Source: an uncultured archaeon
GTDB lineage: Archaea > Nanobdellota > Nanobdellia > Woesearchaeales > UBA583
Direction: 5' to 3'
Length of the DNA stretch: 33,390 bases
Assembly: GCA_937138345.1 (NCBI GenBank)
Contig: CAKZOW010000045.1
Coordinates: 1 to 33,390, forward strand
Shown piece by piece: positions 1,500 to 23,591 of this stretch. The notes under the pieces were generated by a model. That model saw only the letters and a program-made list of their open reading frames with translations, was not told where the DNA came from and ran no database searches. The position numbers and the translations under genes are program-made. The first letter of the stretch is position 1; each line of letters starts with the position of its first letter.

Positions 1500-2873
1500 A
1501 TGAACTTTTTAGTTAGAATAAACTTTAATAAATATAAAAATAGCATTTTGTCTATGTTAGATTCTTTATTAGTTGGGTTTTTTTTATCTCTTCTTTTAGG
1601 AGCAGTTATTGGTGCTCAGAGAGAGATGACCCTTCAAAAATTTAAAAAACAAGATTTTGCAGGTTTTAGAACTTATACTATTATTACTATGCTTGGGTTT
1701 TTATTAGGATATTTATCATTTGTAAGATTAGATGAGATGTATATTGCTTTAGTAGGAATTTTAGGTATGTTTGCATTTTCTCTTGTTGCATATAAACAGG
1801 TAAGTGTAAGAGGAAAAGATGTTTCAATTATTTCAGAAATTAGTGCAGTTGTGATGTTTATAGTAGGGATTTTAGTAGCACTTCAGGAATATTATTTTTC
1901 AGTTATTGTTACATTTATTTTGACATCTCTTGTTGCAGTTGGAAATCAATTACATGGTTTTGCTAAAAAACTTACAACTAATGAGGTGTTTGCATCCTTA
2001 AAATTTGCATTAATTTCAATTATTGTTTTACCTCTTCTACCAAATAGAAATTATTCTCTCTATGATATGTCTGGAATTAGAGAGATGCTTCTTCATTTTG
2101 GCCTATCTCAAGATTTTTTAATTGCAATGAATGTATTTAATCCTTTTGAAATTTGGCTTATGGTTGTGTTTGTCTCAGCAATTGCTTTTGTAGGTTATAT
2201 ATTAATGAGAACTATTGGCGCTCAAAAAGGTATTTTATATACTGGTTTTTTAGGAGGGCTTATGTCTTCAACAGCACTTACTTCTTCATTTTCAATAGAG
2301 AGTAAAAGAATTCCTTTTGCACTTACTCCTCTAGCCATTGGAGTTATTGTTGCATGTTCAATTATGTTTTATAGAATTATTTTTACAGTATCTATTTTAT
2401 TTCCATCTTTGGTTTCTCTGCTTTTTATTCCTATGGGGATTATGGGGAGTGTTGGTTTGCTGCTTGCCTTTTTTTTATTTAAAAAATCTAAAAAAGATCA
2501 TAAACAAGAATTTAAGGTAGATACTCCTTTTGCATTAAAGCCTGCCTTTTTTTTTGCTGGTTTTTATGTTGGAATAATTTTTTTAGCACAGGCAATGCTT
2601 TATTATTTTGGAGAAAGTGGTGTTTTATTAGTTGCATTTTTATCAGGGATTGCAGATGTTGATGCAATTACTATTTCTTTAGCAAGACTTTCTGCAGATG
2701 GTGTTATTTCTTCTAAATTAGCAGTTCTAGGGATTGTTATTGCTGCGTTTTCAAATACAATTGTTAAGGCTGGAATCGCATATTCTCTTGGGGCAAAGAA
2801 ATTCGCAAAATATATATTTATAGTATTTTCTTTGATAATCTTATCAGGAGTTCTTACATTATTATTTATTTGA
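1500..2873 (+). CDS. MgtC/SapB-DUF4010 family integral membrane protein
   Basis: A 457-residue polytopic membrane protein with a dozen or so hydrophobic segments. Residues about 20-140 match the MgtC/SapB membrane domain (LLLGAVIGAQREM, then FRTYTIITMLGFLLGYLS). The C-terminal half has the hallmarks of DUF4010: GGLMSSTALTSSFS and GIADVDAITISLARLS. Such fusion proteins of 420-460 residues are widespread; their transport or regulatory role is not settled. The start at 1500 leaves 18 polar residues before the first membrane segment; Met19 (1554) is an alternative that begins right at the MgtC domain. Its end overlaps the convergent minus-strand gene by 8 bases. Confidence 0.85.
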   Translation: MNFLVRINFNKYKNSILSMLDSLLVGFFLSLLLGAVIGAQREMTLQKFKKQDFAGFRTYTIITMLGFLLGYLSFVRLDEMYIALVGILGMFAFSLVAYKQVSVRGKDVSIISEISAVVMFIVGILVALQEYYFSVIVTFILTSLVAVGNQLHGFAKKLTTNEVFASLKFALISIIVLPLLPNRNYSLYDMSGIREMLLHFGLSQDFLIAMNVFNPFEIWLMVVFVSAIAFVGYILMRTIGAQKGILYTGFLGGLMSSTALTSSFSIESKRIPFALTPLAIGVIVACSIMFYRIIFTVSILFPSLVSLLFIPMGIMGSVGLLLAFFLFKKSKKDHKQEFKVDTPFALKPAFFFAGFYVGIIFLAQAMLYYFGESGVLLVAFLSGIADVDAITISLARLSADGVISSKLAVLGIVIAAFSNTIVKAGIAYSLGAKKFAKYIFIVFSLIILSGVLTLLFI

Positions 2874-3528
2874 AATGTTTATCGATGATTCCTTTTATTT
2901 TATCATAACATTTTCTTTTCATTACTTCAATTTCATGATCAACATTTTTTTCAAACCACATTTTTGACATAATTTCTTTGAGATATTCTTCAGAAAAAGG
3001 AGTCCATTTTGTTATGTATTGAAGCTTTTTGAACTTTTCTCTAAGAACTACGTTTTTGTATTCCATTTTATTTCTAAGTTCCCAACCTCCATCTTGGAGA
3101 GTAATTTTATTATTTCCATCTAAAATTTCTACATTTCTCATATTACGATTTGATAAATTAAGTTCAAAGGTAACTACAGATTCATCTTTATATAAAGGTC
3201 CTGTTTTTTTAGCTTTCCAGATAATTTCTACATCAAATGCTCCATCTCCTTTATCACACCAAAAGAATTTTTGCTCATACATGTTTTTGTTTCTTTTGAG
3301 TTGTTTAGTGTCTGCGAGTTCTCCTTTTTTTAATTTAGATGTTGCATTTACATTAGAAAAAAATTTAGGGTCTTTATCCCAAGTAATATCATCCCATCCA
3401 GATTCTGTTAGTGTTTTACCTAGTTCTGTGTAAAAATCTCTTAAATTCATTTGTTTACCGTAGGCGTATTTTCCACCGTCCATAAAGGTTGCTGTAAGAG
3501 ATCCATCATCTTGAATTGAATAATCCAT
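2866..3528 (-). CDS. Conserved-looking hypothetical protein, soluble
   Basis: A 220-residue protein with no signal peptide and no membrane segment; I do not recognise the family. It opens with MDYSIQDDGSLTATFMDGG and alternates strand-like stretches (WCDKGDGAFDVEIIWKAKK, SVVTFELNLSNRNM) with a basic, helical C-terminus containing one Cys in KRKCYDKIKGI. The mix of many Lys/Asp and Trp residues suggests a compact soluble alpha/beta protein. It is convergent with the MgtC-like gene (8-base overlap) and divergent from the helicase at 3641. The minus-strand stretch 3550-3562 (AGTTTAAAAATAA) is a plausible TATA box about 26 nt upstream, supporting this start. Confidence 0.7.
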   Translation of the reverse strand: MDYSIQDDGSLTATFMDGGKYAYGKQMNLRDFYTELGKTLTESGWDDITWDKDPKFFSNVNATSKLKKGELADTKQLKRNKNMYEQKFFWCDKGDGAFDVEIIWKAKKTGPLYKDESVVTFELNLSNRNMRNVEILDGNNKITLQDGGWELRNKMEYKNVVLREKFKKLQYITKWTPFSEEYLKEIMSKMWFEKNVDHEIEVMKRKCYDKIKGIIDKHFK

Positions 3529-3640
3529 AAGAATTTCTAAGAAATATTATTTTTAAACTTTTGTTGTATCTTTTTTATATTACTTAATATGTGTTTTTCA
3601 AAATGCTTGTTTTTCTACTTTTTTTATAGCATACTTTTAT

Positions 3641-5362
3641 ATGCATATGAGTACTAATTTTAGTATGGATGAAGTAAAAGTACTAGGTTCTAAATCAATT
3701 ACTGTTGAGAGTAAAGAATCAATTATTAATTTGGTTTTAGATACTTTAGCTATAGAAAAACAACTTCTTATTTTCAATAATTCTAAAAATTCTTCAGAAG
3801 CTACAGCAGAAAAAATTGCAATGGCTCTAAAGAAGAAAAAGACAGTTACTCATCAAAAAGAACTCTCTCAACTCTCAGAGCAAATATTAAAAGTAATGCA
3901 ATCACCTACCAAACAATGTAGAAGACTTGCAAAATGTGTGGAGCAAGGAATTGCATTTCATCACAGTGGTCTTGTTTCAAAACAGAGATATTTAATTGAA
4001 GAGAATTTTAAGAAAGGAATTATTAAAGTGATTTCAAGCACACCAACTCTTGCTGCAGGGCTTAATCTTCCAGCATATAAGGTAATTATTAAAGATTATA
4101 AAAGATATTCTTCTAGAGGATTTAATGATATTCCAGTTTTAGAATTTATGCAAATGGCAGGCCGTGCAGGAAGGCCAGGTCATGAAGATATAGGACACTC
4201 AGTAGTTCATATCAAAGATGATAATGAATTAGAGAGAGTGATTAAGAAATATATTCATGGTAAACCTGAAGAGATTTATTCAAAATTAGCAGTTGAACCT
4301 ACTCTTAAAATGTATGTTTTATCTTTAGTTTCCATGGATATTATTAACACTGAAGATGAGATTAAGGAATTTTTTAAAAATACTTTATACGGAGAACAAT
4401 ACCATGATTTAGAGGGTCTTTATTATAATATTTTTAAAGTTTTGAAAATATTAAAAGAGTATCAATTTGTACGAGAGGATGATAATTATTATGTTGCAAC
4501 AACTCTTGGAAAAAAAGTATCAGAGCTTTATTTAAATCCAGATACTGCTCATTTATTTTTGAGTCATTTTGATACATTTGTAAAAACTTTGGGGTCAAAA
4601 TATGTTTCAAGACAACATGTTTTTAATTTAATTCAATTATTTTCAACAACTATGGAGATGAAACCTCTATTTAGGATGGGTAAAAAAGAGGAAGAACATT
4701 ATATGCAACTCGCAGATGATGTTCAAGAAGAGTTATTTGTTGAATATGATCCTTTTGAACAAGATTTACAGGATTTTATGAATGGGTTAAAGACGGCTGA
4801 GATTATGCAAGATTGGATTGAGGAAGCACCTGAAGAATATATCTCTGAGAAGTATTCAATAACTCCAGGAGAGCTGCATTTTAAAAAAGAAGTTATAGAT
4901 TGGCTTTTATATTGTTTGGAGGAGTTTTCACAACTTAGAAAACAATTTTATCTTAAAAATTATTTTAATAAATTACGACAGAGATTTAAATCAGGAATTA
5001 AGGATGATGTTTTAGTTCTCATTTCTCTTAAGGGAGTTGGAAGAGTAAGGGCTAGGAAACTAAAAAAAGCAGGATTTGGTACTCTCTCAGATTTGCGTTC
5101 TGCAACATTTGAGCAACTCTCAAGAGTAATAGGAGATGCACTTACAATTTCAATTAAAAAAGAATTACATGGAGAAACTTATGAGCAAGATTTTTCTCAT
5201 GAATTAAAGCAAGTTGAAAAATTCTCAAGATCTTCAAAACCTAAGGAAATTAGAGTGAGAGAAGTAACAGAAGTAGAGGTAGATGAATTAGTAGAAGAGA
5301 CACAAAATTTTGAGAAAGAAAAAGAAGAAGCTAAACAAAAAGGTTTATTGCAGTATTTTTGA
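3641..5362 (+). CDS. hel308: Hel308-type helicase, C-terminal half only (RecA2, winged helix, ratchet, HhH)
   Basis: Hel308 (Hjm) is an archaeal SF2 3'-5' helicase acting at stalled replication forks. Here 573 residues begin just before the second RecA domain. Visible motifs are a motif IV-like LLIFNNSKNSSEATAEK (43-58), AFHHSGL (105-111), motif V VISSTPTLAAGLNLPA (130-145) and motif VI QMAGRAGRPG (171-180) with its Arg fingers. Winged-helix and ratchet regions follow, then a helix-hairpin-helix (LKGVGRVRARKLKKAGF, about 470-490). Walker A and the DExH box are absent, and the 112 bases upstream cannot encode them. The last eight residues, QKGLLQYF, form a PCNA-interacting (PIP) box. The frame is long and intact, so a split gene is likelier than decay. 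A TATA-like TTTTTATA at 3619-3628 could equally serve Met3 at 3647. Confidence 0.88.
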   Translation: MHMSTNFSMDEVKVLGSKSITVESKESIINLVLDTLAIEKQLLIFNNSKNSSEATAEKIAMALKKKKTVTHQKELSQLSEQILKVMQSPTKQCRRLAKCVEQGIAFHHSGLVSKQRYLIEENFKKGIIKVISSTPTLAAGLNLPAYKVIIKDYKRYSSRGFNDIPVLEFMQMAGRAGRPGHEDIGHSVVHIKDDNELERVIKKYIHGKPEEIYSKLAVEPTLKMYVLSLVSMDIINTEDEIKEFFKNTLYGEQYHDLEGLYYNIFKVLKILKEYQFVREDDNYYVATTLGKKVSELYLNPDTAHLFLSHFDTFVKTLGSKYVSRQHVFNLIQLFSTTMEMKPLFRMGKKEEEHYMQLADDVQEELFVEYDPFEQDLQDFMNGLKTAEIMQDWIEEAPEEYISEKYSITPGELHFKKEVIDWLLYCLEEFSQLRKQFYLKNYFNKLRQRFKSGIKDDVLVLISLKGVGRVRARKLKKAGFGTLSDLRSATFEQLSRVIGDALTISIKKELHGETYEQDFSHELKQVEKFSRSSKPKEIRVREVTEVEVDELVEETQNFEKEKEEAKQKGLLQYF

Positions 5363-14028: not shown

Positions 14029-14643
14029 TTACTTTGATTTAATCAATGATTCAGGAATTTTAATCTCAACATCACATCTTTGAATAAAACTGAGCTTATC
14101 TATTAGATTTCTACTTTCTTCTGTTGGTGAGATATAACAAATTGATTTACTTTTCAGATCTTTTACAAGTAAAGAGTGAGATACTTCTTTTTTAAATATT
14201 TTTCCAAATAAACTATATTTGGCAATGGAAGGCTCAAATTCATTTCTTTGATATACACTAATATTTTCGTTTTCATACACATTTTCTGCTTGATTTGTAT
14301 GGTTATACCATTGTGTCGGAAGTAAAAATGCACCATAAAACATCAAGGAACCTAATTTTTCAATAGGTTTATATTTTTTCACTCTATCTATATGTCTATA
14401 TTCGGCTTCTTTTAACTTTTTTTTATATTCGCTCGAATTCATGCCTATACTTTCTGATTTTTCAGAACTTTTATTAATCATATAATCGTTATCTTTTTTT
14501 AATCTTTCTATATCATTACTTAAAGTTTTATTTTGAAACTTATTTATAGACTTATATACAACAGTACCTATAATAAATGCAACAGGGTTAAATAGAAATG
14601 CTCCTGAAACCAGAGAATAATATATTTTTTTTTCTAAATCCAT
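14029..14643 (-). CDS. Hypothetical protein with two hydrophobic segments
   Basis: 204 residues from the chosen start; family not recognised. A first hydrophobic stretch (about 8-30, YYSLVSGAFLFNPVAFIIGT) is followed by a long Lys/Glu/Ser-rich probably coiled region, then a second, shorter hydrophobic stretch (LGSLMFYGAFLLP) and a C-terminal domain with predicted strands. An upstream in-frame ATG at 14667 adds eight residues, but the TATA box (TTTATATG on the minus strand, 14665-14672) overlaps that codon and is centred 26 nt before the ATG at 14643, so 14643 is the likely leaderless start. It lies downstream of the secretion ATPase but has its own promoter. Function unknown. Confidence 0.6.
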   Translation of the reverse strand: MDLEKKIYYSLVSGAFLFNPVAFIIGTVVYKSINKFQNKTLSNDIERLKKDNDYMINKSSEKSESIGMNSSEYKKKLKEAEYRHIDRVKKYKPIEKLGSLMFYGAFLLPTQWYNHTNQAENVYENENISVYQRNEFEPSIAKYSLFGKIFKKEVSHSLLVKDLKSKSICYISPTEESRNLIDKLSFIQRCDVEIKIPESLIKSK

Positions 14644-14664
14644 ATATGTAATATTTATTTCGAA

Positions 14665-14672
14665 CATATAAA
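14665..14672 (-). promoter_or_regulatory. TATA box that sets the start of the 14643 gene
   Basis: Minus-strand TTTATATG, centred 26 nt from the ATG at 14643, overlaps the alternative ATG at 14667 and argues against it. Confidence 0.55.
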
Positions 14673-14718: not shown

Positions 14719-14742
14719 CCAAAAATTCAAATGAATTTTTGG
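14719..14742 (-). terminator. Strong hairpin after the tandem 3'-end copies
   Basis: CCAAAAATTCA and TGAATTTTTGG form a perfect 11-bp inverted repeat around two central bases. It lies beyond the last decayed copy of the ATPase 3' end and ahead of the next minus-strand promoter, so it may be the final terminator of that transcript. Confidence 0.55.
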
Positions 14743-14757
14743 TCGAGATTTATAGAG

Positions 14758-14961
14758 TTACTTTTTCTGTTCGAAAAAGTCTCTACTATAATTCTCATAC
14801 ATAACAATTTTGTTCCAAAATTCTTAGTCGACTCTTATTCTTAATTTTTTTCTTCGAAAAAATTCCTAGAATAAGATTCATATTCAACAATCAGAGATTC
14901 TTGATCGAAATTTATGCTTCATTATTTTTCTTCGAAAAATTGCTTTGCATAACTTTCATAC
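14758..14961 (-). repeat. Three tandem copies of the secretion-ATPase 3' end (about 82-bp period)
   Basis: The gene's own end reads Y-E-S-Y-A-K-Q-F-F-E-E-K-stop (stop 14922-14924). Downstream on the minus strand are two decayed copies in the intergenic DNA: Y-E-S-Y-S-R-N-F-F-E-E-K-N-stop (stop 14841-14843) and Y-E-N-Y-S-R-D-F-F-E-Q-K-K-stop (stop 14758-14760). Stops are 81 and 83 bases apart. Similarity continues past each stop (TCGATCAAGAATC, TCGACTAAGAATT, TCGACCAAAAATT). Each copy keeps a hairpin around TTTTTCGAA: stems ATTTTTC/GAAAAAT, ATTTTTTC/GAAAAAA.T and ACTTTTTC/GAAAAAGT, with a compensating T-A to C-G change in the last. Confidence 0.7.
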
Positions 14962-17201
14962 CACTCTTTGAATTTGAAGTAAATAGATTCAGGATTTAGT
15001 GATCCTTCTTCTTCATTTACTTTTTCAGCTATTTTGTGAAACATGTCATTTGCATGAATCACAGGGGCTGCTTCTAGAATTGATTCATCATTATATTTGA
15101 TAGATATGTCAACTTGGAGTTGTTTTATTTTACCTCTTAGAGTAATGTTTTGCCAAATGGCATCCCAATTACCAGCCCACTGCTTTACATTTGAACCTAT
15201 TGCTTTTAAGATATCGGATTCTCCATTGATTAAGTCATCTGTTAATTCTAATCTATCTGTTTGTGGATCATATTTGAAGAGGTCCATGAAACCACCTTCT
15301 AGTTCTGGATCATTTTCCCAACTTTTTCTCACTTCGGTAATTGATGTTATTCTTCTATTTCTGTGGAGTCCATCTGAGGACTTTACAGGATTTGCAACAA
15401 TTACTAAATCAGTTGCTTTAAATGATGTTTTTGGAACTCCCAAATCGTTTACTAGACGATCATATACACCATAGGGAGAGTCTCCGTGAATTGTTCCTGC
15501 TACTACATTTGCAAGTGCACCTACACGCATTGCTTCATAAAGTGCGAGAGCTTCTGTTGATCTTACTTCTCCAACAATTAGACAAGAATCACCGAGACGA
15601 AGTGTTGATCTAATACCCATATCTGCGGAGAATCCTTCTTTTGAAGTTGATAGTGCGGATTTTACAGACATTGGTTGTATGTTAAAACCCAAATCTGCAA
15701 GTTGAAGTGTAGGCAATTCTAAGGTATCTTCTACAGTAATCATTCTATATTTTCTCATGATTTCAACAATTACTGCAGTTAAAAATGATGATTTTCCTGA
15801 ACCCCGAGTCCCTGCTATGAGCATTGTTCTTGCACCATCAATAATAAATGATAATACTCCTGAAGCTTCAGAGGTTATCATGTCTTTTTTAATTAATAGA
15901 GGTAATGTCCAAGGTTTATCTCTGTGACGTCTAAATGAAAACCCGTATCCGTATGGGTTGAGAGGTTTACCAATGGTTGATACTCTAGCTCTTGCATGAG
16001 GTGTTTCAATTTCTGTATCTAAAATAGGATTTGAAGCATCTAGTGGTTTTCCTGAAATCATTCTAAGTCTAGATGCCCATCCTTCCACTTCGTCTTCTTC
16101 AGGAATAATATTTGTTTTACAATCTTCAAATTCAGAGTGGGTTAAAAAAATAGGGGTCTTATTTGCAGGGGAATTAATTGAGATATCTTGTACATTTTCA
16201 TCCTCGAGAAGAGTTTCAATTAATCCAAATCCAACAGTATACCTAATTAAAATATTTGATAGATCAGTTACATCTTTTTGAGATAATTTAACTCCTTTAA
16301 ATTCAGCAATTTCTTCAATTAAATCTTTAGCAATATTGAAAAATACTTCTCTTAGTCTATGGGGGTCTATGAAATCATTTGATTCTGGTTTATGTTCTGA
16401 GATTACTTCTTTTGCTAGATTTAAAATATTATATTTGTCTTCATTTAACGTGAACTCTAGGGGCATTACGTGATAGAGGTTATTTGCTTCATTATCTAAC
16501 TCAAATATTGTAATGTTAGCAGAGCTAAGTGCATAAGAATCTAGTTCTTTTGCTTCAAGAGGAATTCTTTTGAGAAGGGAGGTATATATGAAATTTGGCT
16601 TAATATTTGCATCAAAGAACTGCTTGTAGAGCTTTCTTGATCCAACCTGATGTCCAGAGAGTTTATCTTTTACTCCTTTAATAATTTGGAGTCCTTCCAT
16701 TTTATGAAGAATATACTGAATTGCTTTGTCGTATTTGTTATCAACTTCAATGCATTTATTATTTGAGTATGTTGTTTCAAATTTATAATCCCGAAGTTTT
16801 CTTTTTAACTTAACAAATGTACCGATAGGATCTGCAGGCAAATCTTTAATAATTGTATTTTGTAAAAATGCATACCTTGAGAAAAATAATTTTGTACACT
16901 CGGGATCTGAACTAGATATTTGACCTGCAGAAAATAGTTCTTTTTGTCTAGATAAAAGAGAGTATAAATCTCCGATTTCTTTTAAAATTGCTACATGTTC
17001 AAAACCATATTCGTAGTTTTTGTTATGTGTGAAAATGACTTTAGTAACGGAAGCGTTAGAGATAATTTTTTTAATTGTCTCCCTCATAACAATAGGAGAA
17101 TCTTCGATGGATGGAAAGTGTTCTTTTCCTAAATAATTTATTTTAAGAATTGTTTCAACACCGTGTTTTACAACTTCAAAATCTTTTTCTCCTGAGAACA
17201 T
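14922..17201 (-). CDS. Type II/IV secretion (archaeal pilus) ATPase, PilT/ArlI/TadA-like
   Basis: 759 residues. The C-terminal half is a secretion ATPase of the superfamily that powers archaeal pili, archaella and type IV secretion: Walker A GTRGSGKS (464-471), Asp box VEDTLELP (490-497), Walker B CLIVGEVRSTEA (540-551) and His box GTIHGDSP (569-576), preceded by the N2-like region (DENVQDISINSP). About 290 N-terminal residues have no motif I recognise and make it longer than typical ArlI (about 550). No TadC/PilC-like membrane partner or pilin cluster is adjacent, so the system is unidentified. Its leader carries an inverted repeat (17214-17238). The 3' end is repeated downstream. The start has no other ATG nearby to compete. 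Confidence 0.88.
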   Translation of the reverse strand: MFSGEKDFEVVKHGVETILKINYLGKEHFPSIEDSPIVMRETIKKIISNASVTKVIFTHNKNYEYGFEHVAILKEIGDLYSLLSRQKELFSAGQISSSDPECTKLFFSRYAFLQNTIIKDLPADPIGTFVKLKRKLRDYKFETTYSNNKCIEVDNKYDKAIQYILHKMEGLQIIKGVKDKLSGHQVGSRKLYKQFFDANIKPNFIYTSLLKRIPLEAKELDSYALSSANITIFELDNEANNLYHVMPLEFTLNEDKYNILNLAKEVISEHKPESNDFIDPHRLREVFFNIAKDLIEEIAEFKGVKLSQKDVTDLSNILIRYTVGFGLIETLLEDENVQDISINSPANKTPIFLTHSEFEDCKTNIIPEEDEVEGWASRLRMISGKPLDASNPILDTEIETPHARARVSTIGKPLNPYGYGFSFRRHRDKPWTLPLLIKKDMITSEASGVLSFIIDGARTMLIAGTRGSGKSSFLTAVIVEIMRKYRMITVEDTLELPTLQLADLGFNIQPMSVKSALSTSKEGFSADMGIRSTLRLGDSCLIVGEVRSTEALALYEAMRVGALANVVAGTIHGDSPYGVYDRLVNDLGVPKTSFKATDLVIVANPVKSSDGLHRNRRITSITEVRKSWENDPELEGGFMDLFKYDPQTDRLELTDDLINGESDILKAIGSNVKQWAGNWDAIWQNITLRGKIKQLQVDISIKYNDESILEAAPVIHANDMFHKIAEKVNEEEGSLNPESIYFKFKEWYESYAKQFFEEK

Positions 17202-20492: not shown

Positions 20493-23400
20493 TTATTTAA
20501 ATTCTATGTCTTCATCGAGAAATAAATCATCTTCTCCTTCAAAGCCTTGACTTTCATTTTCTTGTTCTAAATTCATTTGATTGTATCTTCTCACAACAAC
20601 TAATGATAATCCAATAATTATAATACCTACTATTATCCAAACCCATGGTAATGAATTTTCTTGTGTTGGTTCTTCAGGCGTAACATAAATAGATATTTCT
20701 TTTTGATAGTCTCCAGAACTTAAAACAATACTTCCAGTAAGAGGGGTTGATCTATTGAGAAGTTCTTCTTTGTTCATTAGGGAGAAATATATTTCCCTTG
20801 TTTCATTAAATGCAAGTATTTTACTTTCTTCTGTAGCATTGATATATTCAACATAATCTCCAGTAACTAAAACATCTACTGTTTGTTTGTCATCTGCACT
20901 ATTTGTAATTGATAATGAGAATTCTTCTTCTACATTATACATGTTAATATTTTCAGTTTCTACAGTAAATGTTTTTGGGATTAATGTTAGTGAGAATGTT
21001 TCTTCTTTCTCAAATGTTTTTCCACCTTCACTCTCGCATGTGAAAGTAATTGTAAATTCTCCTGTTTTTTGGAGTAAGTTTGAGAGTTGAATGAACTCAG
21101 TGTCTTGAGTGATTGTTGATTGCTCGTTTCTATTTTCAAAAGGATTTGTAATAGTACAGATATTTGAAAATGATTCCAATGGTGATGTAATAGGTAATTT
21201 TGTGAAAATGTCTCCTTCAATTACTGTTACTTCATTTGATTCTAATGAGAATGGGAATGGAGCACTCAGCGAGATAGGAATTGTTATGAATTCGATTTCT
21301 TTTTTATTATTGAATCCAGTTATTATTAATTCTCCGGATTCTAATCCTGAAACACCTCCAAGTAGAGTAATATTTATTTCTTCTTGTTCTCCTTGATTTA
21401 ATTCTTCGATTGTTTGTTTAAATGCTAGTTTCTCATTTAGACTATTTCCAAAGGTTATTTCAATATTTTTAATAGAGAAAATAGTGGGGTTTTCAATTGT
21501 TAGAATGATTGAATCTTCTAATGTATTGATTGTTGAAATTTTAAGGTATGGTTTAATTTGTTCTTCAATTGTTAAATATGCTAAAGTGTTTTTTTCTATT
21601 GAACCCCATCCTGTGTTAGGCTCATTAAAATAAACCCATTTTCTAGCATCTTCTAAATATTCACTTTTATCATCTCTTTGTGAGAGTCCAAGTGATGCCC
21701 AAGAAGTTTCAAGAATTTTTTCAGTATTGCTTTTATCTCCCCATGAACCATCATTATTTTGAACGAATTTTAGAGAATCTTCAACTTCTTCATTTTGGAA
21801 GTAATAGAGATATTTTCCTGAAAATTCAATTTCTTTATTTGTTTGATCAACAAACATTAATTCATCTGAGTCTTCTTTGATATATGATTTTAGAAAATTT
21901 TCAATTTCATTTTTGTTTTCAGAACTTGATTCTAAAATATTGTTTGCAAATAATGTCGTTTCAAAATCACAATTGTTATTATTTGAGATACAAGAATATG
22001 TTGAGAAATCATTTGGTACGGAGTATGATTTAGATGCTATATCTTCATCTTCATCAGATATTTGTTCTCTTCCAAATTTATCAAATAATGAATATTTAAG
22101 AGTTTCAATTTTTTTATCACAGGAAATTGATATTGAATTTGAAACAGAGTATTTATCGATTATAATTAGGTTGTTTTCTAAATCATCTTCATCAAATGTT
22201 TGTGTTCTTTTTGAATCATCTGTTGTTATATCACAAGTTAGAATTTCTTCATCATTGTCGAATTCATAGGATAATTCGAAGAGCACTTCAAATGTATCGT
22301 CGTTATTAGAATCAATTTCAAATTCGATTTCTGGTGTGTCTTCACTTTCTTCACTTGTGTATTCTCCAGCATAGATGATGTAGAATACTTCGTCTAATTC
22401 TTCATCACAATCAAGATCAAATTCTTCATCAATATTTTGATTAATTCTAAATTCTTCGATTGCTGAGTCTTCATCAAATGTATAATCTGTAGTGTCTCCG
22501 TCAATTTCTAAACTACATTCAATTTCTTCATTTGCAGAGAATTCATGTTTGATGGAGAGTTCTAAGATAAATTCTGAATAGTCATCTTTATCAGATTCAC
22601 TTAGTTCGTGACTTAGTCTATCTTCGTTTGAACTAAAATCTTCAGAAATTGTTTCTTCAAATGTTGTAATTCTTAGAAAATCAACATCTTCGTCACAGTT
22701 AAAATCTATATTCTCTTCTGCACTTTTGTATATTCTTAATTCTTCTAAATCTGAATCTTCGTCAAAGAGATATGATCTTTCTTCATCACCAAAATCTAAA
22801 TTTAGATCACATTCAATTTCTTCATTATTTCCAAATTCATGCTCTAAAAATATTTCTACTTCGTATGAATCAAGACTATCAGTTTGGGATGTGTATTCAA
22901 TTTCTTCGTCTTCTAGAATTTTATTTTCAAAAAATATTTTACCATCTTCTAAAAGTCTGGAGTCTTCAGAATATTGTGCTAAATTGATATTATTGAGAAT
23001 CTTTGCTGTAGTTAGCAAATCACAATTATTTTGAGGCCAACATTTTTCATCATTGTTTCTATCGTTTTTTAATTTTTCATATGCATCTATTGTTTCTTGA
23101 GTTAATTGGTCTTGAATTTTATTTAATGTTAGAAGATAATAACTTAGATCAAGAGAATTTAATGTTGTATAATCTTTTTCTAAGATGTAGTTAAGTAATT
23201 TTGATTCTTTTTCTTCTTCAAATTTTCTTGTTAATGTTCTTTCTTTTTCATCTTGGATGTATGATGTGTGTAATGTGAAATCAGAACAAGATATTTCATT
23301 AAAATTTTTATTTGCATAATAACAAGATTGTTCATTTTCATAGAGTTCTATTTCTATTTCTTCTCCAGAACTACAAACTACTTTGCTTGAGATTTCTACT

Positions 23401-23591
23401 TTGTCTTTTGGACATACTTCAAAAGAGAGAAGTTCATTTTCTAGGTAATGGATACTTTCAAAAATATTATTCTGCTCTCCAAAGTAGGTTGGATGGTGAA
23501 TTGTTAGTTGGTCTTGAAATGAGAATATCATCGGGATACAACTAAAGGAAATAATAAGTACCAATATTACTTTTTTTAGGGCATAATTCAT
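20493..23591 (-). CDS. Large surface-anchored protein: alpha/alpha-toroid repeats split by acidic Cys repeats
   Basis: 1032 residues: signal peptide (about 6-25), a long exterior region and one C-terminal membrane anchor (about 982-1003) with an acidic cytoplasmic tail. Toroid-like repeats of the prenyltransferase/squalene-cyclase kind appear at about 183-205 (KCWPQNNCDLLTTAKIL), 534-552 (CISNNNNCDFETTLFANNIL), 611-637 (NNDGSWGD, ETSWASLGL) and 658-675 (NTGWGSIEKNT). Between the first two are three tandem repeats of about 96 residues (about 242-310, 338-408, 433-505), each with a motif like DNDEEIxC, then FDED, then C-D; paired Cys are C261/C299, C359/C395, C453/C491. The C-terminal part (about 680-970) looks like Ig-type beta domains. 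No catalytic residues recognised; a cell-surface or adhesion role is likely. Confidence 0.75.
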   Translation of the reverse strand: MNYALKKVILVLIISFSCIPMIFSFQDQLTIHHPTYFGEQNNIFESIHYLENELLSFEVCPKDKVEISSKVVCSSGEEIEIELYENEQSCYYANKNFNEISCSDFTLHTSYIQDEKERTLTRKFEEEKESKLLNYILEKDYTTLNSLDLSYYLLTLNKIQDQLTQETIDAYEKLKNDRNNDEKCWPQNNCDLLTTAKILNNINLAQYSEDSRLLEDGKIFFENKILEDEEIEYTSQTDSLDSYEVEIFLEHEFGNNEEIECDLNLDFGDEERSYLFDEDSDLEELRIYKSAEENIDFNCDEDVDFLRITTFEETISEDFSSNEDRLSHELSESDKDDYSEFILELSIKHEFSANEEIECSLEIDGDTTDYTFDEDSAIEEFRINQNIDEEFDLDCDEELDEVFYIIYAGEYTSEESEDTPEIEFEIDSNNDDTFEVLFELSYEFDNDEEILTCDITTDDSKRTQTFDEDDLENNLIIIDKYSVSNSISISCDKKIETLKYSLFDKFGREQISDEDEDIASKSYSVPNDFSTYSCISNNNNCDFETTLFANNILESSSENKNEIENFLKSYIKEDSDELMFVDQTNKEIEFSGKYLYYFQNEEVEDSLKFVQNNDGSWGDKSNTEKILETSWASLGLSQRDDKSEYLEDARKWVYFNEPNTGWGSIEKNTLAYLTIEEQIKPYLKISTINTLEDSIILTIENPTIFSIKNIEITFGNSLNEKLAFKQTIEELNQGEQEEINITLLGGVSGLESGELIITGFNNKKEIEFITIPISLSAPFPFSLESNEVTVIEGDIFTKLPITSPLESFSNICTITNPFENRNEQSTITQDTEFIQLSNLLQKTGEFTITFTCESEGGKTFEKEETFSLTLIPKTFTVETENINMYNVEEEFSLSITNSADDKQTVDVLVTGDYVEYINATEESKILAFNETREIYFSLMNKEELLNRSTPLTGSIVLSSGDYQKEISIYVTPEEPTQENSLPWVWIIVGIIIIGLSLVVVRRYNQMNLEQENESQGFEGEDDLFLDEDIEFK

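Follow-up and report, generated by a model that had tools for sequence, protein, structure and literature searches.

Tiny two-hairpin units that appear to replace the ends of housekeeping genes in a Woesearchaeota-type archaeon

Introduction

Mobile elements that enter a conserved gene and restore its end are known in several forms. In the mobile ORFs (mORFs) of fungal mitochondria (Allomyces atp6; Glomus atp6, atp9, cox2 and nad3; PMC3630166) an insertion inside the 3' part of the gene carries a homing endonuclease gene (about 1 kb) and brings a foreign, synonymously different C-terminus, while the native C-terminus remains downstream; in atp6 the inserted and native ends differ far more in DNA (63.5% identity) than in protein (91%). 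Prophage e14 in Escherichia coli icd, and similar gene-end attachment sites, follow the same logic, with the element supplying the 3' end of the gene and leaving the displaced end as a duplicate (163 bp; PMC6379469), although e14 is a large element with its own integrase and one target. Structure-defined, sequence-variable hairpin sites that are recombined as folded single strands are described for integron attC sites and CTXphi attP(+) (PMC9668308, PMC3089051); integron cassettes form arrays joined at a shared core, and integrons occur in archaea. REPINs/REP sequences, Rickettsia palindromic elements (RPEs) and MITEs are small dispersed non-coding hairpin elements, and RPEs lie inside genes, but they do not bring a matching host gene end. 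The byps, translational bypassing elements of Magnusiomyces mitochondria (PMC8211752), are very short hairpin inserts in genes which act on translation. They are regarded as mobile.

Here we analyse a repeated gene end in a stretch of 33,390 nucleotides (the window) from an uncultured archaeon (GTDB Woesearchaeales, UBA583; contig CAKZOW010000045.1). The repeat is one of about two dozen copies in this genome of a tiny non-coding insert of two hairpins, roughly 50-130 bases long, which sits inside the ends of housekeeping genes and brings its own replacement gene end, apparently allowing it to spread without breaking the gene. Like the mORFs and e14 these units leave the gene complete, but they carry no gene of their own, they share one hairpin across more than 20 targets, and they also occur at 5' ends and at tRNA genes. 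We found no description of such units in the open-access literature searched, which does not exclude one elsewhere.

Results

Anatomy of the array behind the secretion ATPase gene

The gene for a type II/IV secretion-type ATPase ends YESYAKQFFEEK (ending ...WYESYAKQFFEEK) before its stop codon, and is followed by two more copies of this end, YESYSRNFFEEKN and YENYSRDFFEQKK, each with its own stop codon. The stop codons end at 14922, 14841 and 14758, i.e. 81 and 83 bp apart. Copy 2 matches copies 1 and 3 at 34 and 37 of 51 positions, whereas the best match in 200 dinucleotide shuffles was 31, and the stop-codon hairpin TTTTTCGAAGAAAAA is present in all three. The sequence-only reading that first noted three copies of the gene end at these spacings is thus confirmed in its observation. 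It placed the feature at 14758 to 14961, however, and missed the larger anatomy, in which each copy is enclosed in an outer stem (hp1) and followed by a second hairpin (hp2), so that the feature runs from 14719 to 14962. Each of the three two-hairpin units folds better than all 200 shuffles (z -3.7, -5.6 and -7.5). The parts, all on the minus strand of the window, are as follows, X denoting a copy of the gene end.

14922..17201 (minus): host gene, type II/IV secretion-type ATPase of 759 aa (PF00437, E 7.9e-16), with 69-78% identical homologues in five congeneric genomes
14957..14962 (minus): core GGTATG in the gene (consensus RRWATG, the junction following the G), left boundary of unit 1
14908..14956 (minus): X1, the gene end in use (codons to the stop at 14922-14924), folded as hp1 with arms 14947-14956 and 14908-14917
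14879..14907 (minus): hp2 of unit 1, CGATCAAGAATCTCTGATTGTTGAATATG, identical to positions 13229-13257 of contig C75 of the same genome, behind dphB
14831..14878 (minus): X2, the second copy of the gene end (stop 14841-14843), folded as hp1 with arms 14868-14878 and 14831-14841
14796..14830 (minus): hp2 of unit 2, CGACTAAGAATTTTGGAACAAAATTGTTATGTATG, scoring 41.1 bits with covariance model R1
14746..14795 (minus): X3, the third copy of the gene end (stop 14758-14760), folded as hp1 with arms 14786-14795 and 14746-14755
14719..14745 (minus): degenerate third hp2, CGACCAAAAATTCATTTGAATTTTTGG, without the TATG core; no native gene end follows

As even the third copy has an arm and a coreless hp2, the native end at this locus is probably lost. 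A 212-aa ORF without a Pfam match (14029-14667, minus) lies between the array and an IMP dehydrogenase/GMP reductase-like gene, while in congener G001 an IMPDH-like gene follows the ATPase directly; a 1032-aa ORF (20493-23591, minus) is also without any Pfam match. The five congeneric homologues of the ATPase gene lack the array, so that the refuting condition stated with the sequence-only reading, that relatives lack copies beside the homologue, is fulfilled for this gene, but this does not decide the matter because relatives carry the same units at other genes.

A dispersed family sharing one hairpin

The genome (G000), which was searched and sampled in stretches (L numbers denote stretches of this and of other genomes), was compared with the congeneric genomes G001 to G005, of which G001, G003 and G005 correspond to the MAGs SKGP01 (CSBr16_154), JABSQY01 (DT_72) and DAXK01 (UBA583), and with others including G030 (NYYS01). 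A DNA search of the genome with the spacer before copy 2 gave a 29/29 match on contig C75, downstream of dphB (diphthine synthase by sequence; TP_methylase, PF00590), an unrelated gene whose flanks and hp1 arms differ from those of the ATPase. The dphB 3' end, MEENYLSQFQISKFKSYQE with its stop codon, is also present three times, almost only synonymously changed and with the same kind of spacer. About 1.4 kb upstream the same hairpin abuts a copied tRNA-Ser 5' end, and on the other side of the same tRNA gene (L037, 5440-5560) a partial copy of the tRNA-Ser 3' end lies beside sequence resembling the long-type element described below. The spacer element, CGAYYAAnAATnn-loop-nnATTnTTGARTATG, has a 10-bp stem which on 22 sequences keeps 96.8% of cells paired (at most 51% when slid), with changes on both sides at four pairs.

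A pattern scan gave 12 hits in this genome, 0 in the reversed control and 1 in the 144 other genomes sampled from the order. A covariance model found 26 hits in G000 at E<=0.05 (18 of them at 39 bits or more) and further hits in the congeners G001, G002, G003 and G005, but none in G004. A strict-pattern scan of 84,980 species genomes gave cases with flanking copies only in Woesearchaeota/Nanoarchaeota-type MAGs; its bacterial hits show no flanking repeat and were taken as chance. The strict hp2 pattern has 0 hits in 2.9 million viral contigs, while looser patterns gave hits, of which only the first set was checked for stems and showed nothing convincing. No Rfam family reached its threshold.

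Structure and coding constraint of the units

The anatomy was examined in 33 curated units, assembled by eye from model and pattern hits. The gene junction presents the core RRWATG (W 33/33, A 29/33, TG 33/33), which resembles the unit's own end GARTATG; TG was required when units were collected, whereas W and A were not. The bases just before hp2 pair with the first bases after the core of the preceding gene end at 8.03 of 10 positions in exact register, against 3.4-4.5 in all other registers and at most 5.08 in 2000 permutations across units. This stem, hp1, usually encloses the stop codon, or the start codon or tRNA 5' end. The partner position was chosen by pairing, which inflates the score, but it coincides with the position given independently by homology to the next copy (first-10 identity 0.81 against 0.33 permuted). 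The arm pairs better with its own gene end (8.03) than with the next one (6.82), and the last copy usually has no arm (16 of 18 no better than shuffles). Thus gene end, arm and hp2 travel together, and the last copy looks like the former native end; in G003 and G005 it is followed by orthologous flank, although all genomes compared are assembled from metagenomes or similar and include no same-species strain without units.

Between neighbouring copies 82 changed codons are synonymous and 49 are not (63%; neutral simulation mean 10%, maximum 19%), and identity drops from 0.75 within the gene part to 0.44 beyond the gene boundary. In dphB of G003 and G005 the distal copies differ at 9 of 33 positions (counted by eye), all synonymous and including AGA/CGT and TCT/AGT, although the distal copy is outside the gene. 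Hence the copies were working gene ends until recently. In dphB, uvrC, ftsJ and an HTH gene X1 is closer to X3 (48/57, 54/56, 26/27 and 14/16) than to X2, whereas in the ATPase it is not (22/35); we infer that this A-B-A order fits exchange of units between two co-occurring gene-end types.

Positions of the units

Sense units have the gene's stop codon 5-87 nt after the core, while antisense units lie over gene starts, which are close to the core, or over tRNA 5' ends. The targets identified are the secretion ATPase, dphB, UvrC, SMC, a two-domain ABC ATPase that looks like ABCE1/RLI (named from its N-terminal sequence), eIF6, the PolD large subunit, FtsJ, tRNase Z (RNase Z), AlaRS, a radical SAM protein (RlmN-like), L34e, TRM5/TYW2, ferredoxin, pseudouridine synthase, an AI-2E transporter, cyclophilin (hairpin next to its start, without a clear partner copy) and tRNAs. 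By inspection, the uvrA 5' end in G001 is a further target, where a tandem array of three CGACAAAAAATTGTCTGGAAGAAATTTTTCCGTATG hairpins at 69-bp spacing (L225, about 3855-4030; contig C36) presents a distinct hp2 subfamily. The same target position is used in several species for dphB (G000, G003, G005), L34e (G003, G005) and RNase Z (G002, G005). At L230 (about 3190-3225, minus), L227 (3029-3064) and L193, hp2 lies directly before a start codon, its loop reading as a Shine-Dalgarno sequence (GGAGG) and its TATG as the start codon; here hp1 is kept but X1 is not a copy of X2.

Some loci carry longer versions. The ftsJ and HTH-gene 3' ends on contigs C94 and C134 of G000 (L305 and L218, about 14900) share about 85 extra bases (CGACAAGAAATCTTGAGAATGAAATGAACAAGACAC...GTGTCTAGTATG). 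The PolD large subunit 3' end (L219, about 3300-3560, minus) has a unit with about 130 extra bases after hp2, and its gene end ...EKQKSLSSFFGK, which resembles a PCNA-binding motif, is duplicated with two synonymous differences. An intergenic long-type element of about 100 bp before uvrA (L222, about 2850-3010, minus; contig C46 of G000) is flanked by a perfect 25-bp direct repeat. G058, a genome from another family, has dispersed structured elements of about 190 bp (L235-L248, e.g. L243 at about 2690-2905) with terminal inverted arms that differ between loci but stay complementary, 8-12 bp flanking repeats at several copies, and an internal hp1-hp2 module like the one in the window. We infer that the mini-units may derive from such elements.

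Enzyme families searched

Units of about 50-140 bp have no room for a gene. Profile searches gave no Y1 HUH transposase (PF01797) in G000, G001, G002, G003 or G005, no TnpB-type match (PF07282) in G000, G001 or G003, and no reverse transcriptase match (RVT_1, PF00078) in G000, G001, G003, G004, G005 or G030, while the IS110 recombinase (PF02371) was absent in G000, G001 and G005 but present in G002 and G003. Absence of a family from a 95%-complete assembly is, however, not proof of absence. The generic tyrosine recombinase profile PF00589 gave 4 matches in G000. Tyrosine recombinases besides the one strong Xer-like match per genome occur in four of five unit-bearing congeners (G000, G002, G003 and G005, but not found in G001, which is only 71% complete) and not in G004, a correlation which is suggestive but weak. 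Non-Xer tyrosine recombinases in G000 include those at C53, 11783-12331, and C58, 32804-33310. Two such genes about 6 kb apart (C53, 11783-18894, G000) perhaps mark an integrated element, but the integrase neighbourhoods in G000 and G003 hold no unit next to the integrase that would link the two.

Discussion

The interpretation offered with the sequence-only reading is partly supported. Its suggestions of remnants of integration at a gene end and of C-terminal cassettes were close, as the same unit recurs at many unrelated gene ends, nearly always with a substitute gene end, whereas use of the distal copies as spare C-termini was not shown and tandem duplication of a terminator is not supported. 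What the analysis itself establishes is a family of repeated two-hairpin units with a shared core, gene-end replacement, synonymous displaced ends and a patchy distribution; mobility, horizontal exchange and the identity of the displaced copy with the former native end are inferences from these. In the view we favour, the unit is a miniature mobile cassette that enters a conserved gene just after an RRWATG core near the gene's end, and its own copy of the remaining codons (or start codon, or tRNA 5' end) takes over, so that the host pays little; the displaced native end would stay behind hp2 as the last copy, and repeated entries would give arrays. We consider a family of gene-end-restoring mobile cassettes very likely, although no unit-free allele of the same species, no excised form and no enzyme was seen among the genomes examined.

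How such units would move is more tentative, and leaves the explanation as a whole evenly balanced. We propose that a single strand of the unit folds so that hp1 (the core plus the first about 10 bp) reproduces the double-stranded target site, and that a trans-acting enzyme recognizing hp2 exchanges strands at the shared core, by analogy with integron integrases acting on attC and XerCD on CTXphi attP (PMC3089051). The conserved fold with variable sequence at the core is in keeping with a folded single-strand attachment site. However, the core is RRWATG and hp2 reads CGACCAA-hairpin-TTGARTATG, in contrast to the R box and GTTRRRY insertion point (after the G) of attC; the cargo is a gene end and not a gene, and there is no common attI. 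The proposal gives a unit no means of choosing its cognate gene other than hp1/X homology and selection, and as hp1 is variable the enzyme would have to read structure.

The main rival, which we regard as unlikely, is RNA-guided homing, with hp2 as the scaffold of a guide RNA and the adjoining gene-end sequence as the guide; a nuclease in trans would cut unit-free alleles, repair would copy the unit in, and the synonymously different gene end would protect the inserted allele, as in a natural gene drive. This would account for one conserved hairpin with many target-specific neighbours, for the conserved target genes and for the synonymous recoding in dphB and uvrC. In the eIF6, L34e, AlaRS and tRNA units, however, the presumed guide equals the gene end in use over 14-26 nt, and in the ftsJ array X1 is nearly identical to X3, so that the unit would target itself; moreover no TnpB-type nuclease was matched in the three genomes searched, and hp1 has no role.

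SINE-like retroposition, in which a structured RNA is reverse-transcribed into the target with target-site duplications of variable length, is also unlikely. The elements are structured, non-coding and dispersed, and variable flanking duplications are seen for the long types at L222 and in G058, but in the mini-units the duplication ends at the gene boundary, even in young-looking copies (eIF6, PolD), which random duplication ends would not give; no reverse transcriptase was found in the genomes listed above, and arms complementary to the target are not explained. Equally improbable is a host-process origin, with fold-back and template-switch replication errors or plain homologous exchange creating and spreading the arrays without a dedicated enzyme and hp2 carried along. 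Arms complementary to the neighbouring sequence and a short shared core are typical of template switching, and exchange between species explains synonymous copies, but hp2 is conserved in sequence and structure with pair changes on both sides across genera, and hits are confined to a few lineages. Slightly less likely still, the units could be resident functional elements, both copies being used, for example by reversible excision or as mRNA/processing signals. Distal dphB copies keep their peptide in G003 and G005, and the L34e hp1 shows stem changes on both sides; against this stand the patchy presence among congeners at the same gene, the antisense and tRNA locations and the decay of distal copies in some tRNA loci (L056, G021). 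Simple tandem duplication of a terminator with neutral decay, despite three diverged tandem copies that congeners lack beside this gene, is contradicted by a spacer hairpin shared with other genes, by the recurrence of the architecture at more than 20 loci and by units lying antisense over gene starts and tRNA 5' ends.

Other identities were also rejected. A viral carrier is not supported, the strict hp2 pattern having no hits in the viral contigs scanned. A diversity-generating retroelement is at odds with the mostly synonymous changes and the lack of a reverse transcriptase match; IS200/IS605 or REP/RAYT, TnpB/OMEGA and IS110 bridge-RNA elements lack their enzyme families in G000; and RNA-level splicing and ribosome bypass are incompatible with the antisense and tRNA loci, the gene in addition already reading to its own stop inside hp1 and not being interrupted as by a byp.

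A further reading, possible but tentative, is that of a categorically new retargetable mobile system, in which the common hairpin hp2 and a variable stem hp1 copying the target in double-stranded form guide a shared, still unknown enzyme to many different conserved gene ends, so that units under 150 bp home between species while rebuilding each gene they enter. If the cassette interpretation is right, gene-end-restoring mobile elements can be as small as two hairpins and still hit many essential genes in one archaeal lineage. That would be an unrecorded class of selfish DNA in Woesearchaeota/DPANN genomes, a source of exchanged C-termini and 5' regions in core genes, and a lead, through the hp2 motif, to an unknown hairpin-recognizing enzyme that can be retargeted through a short stem.
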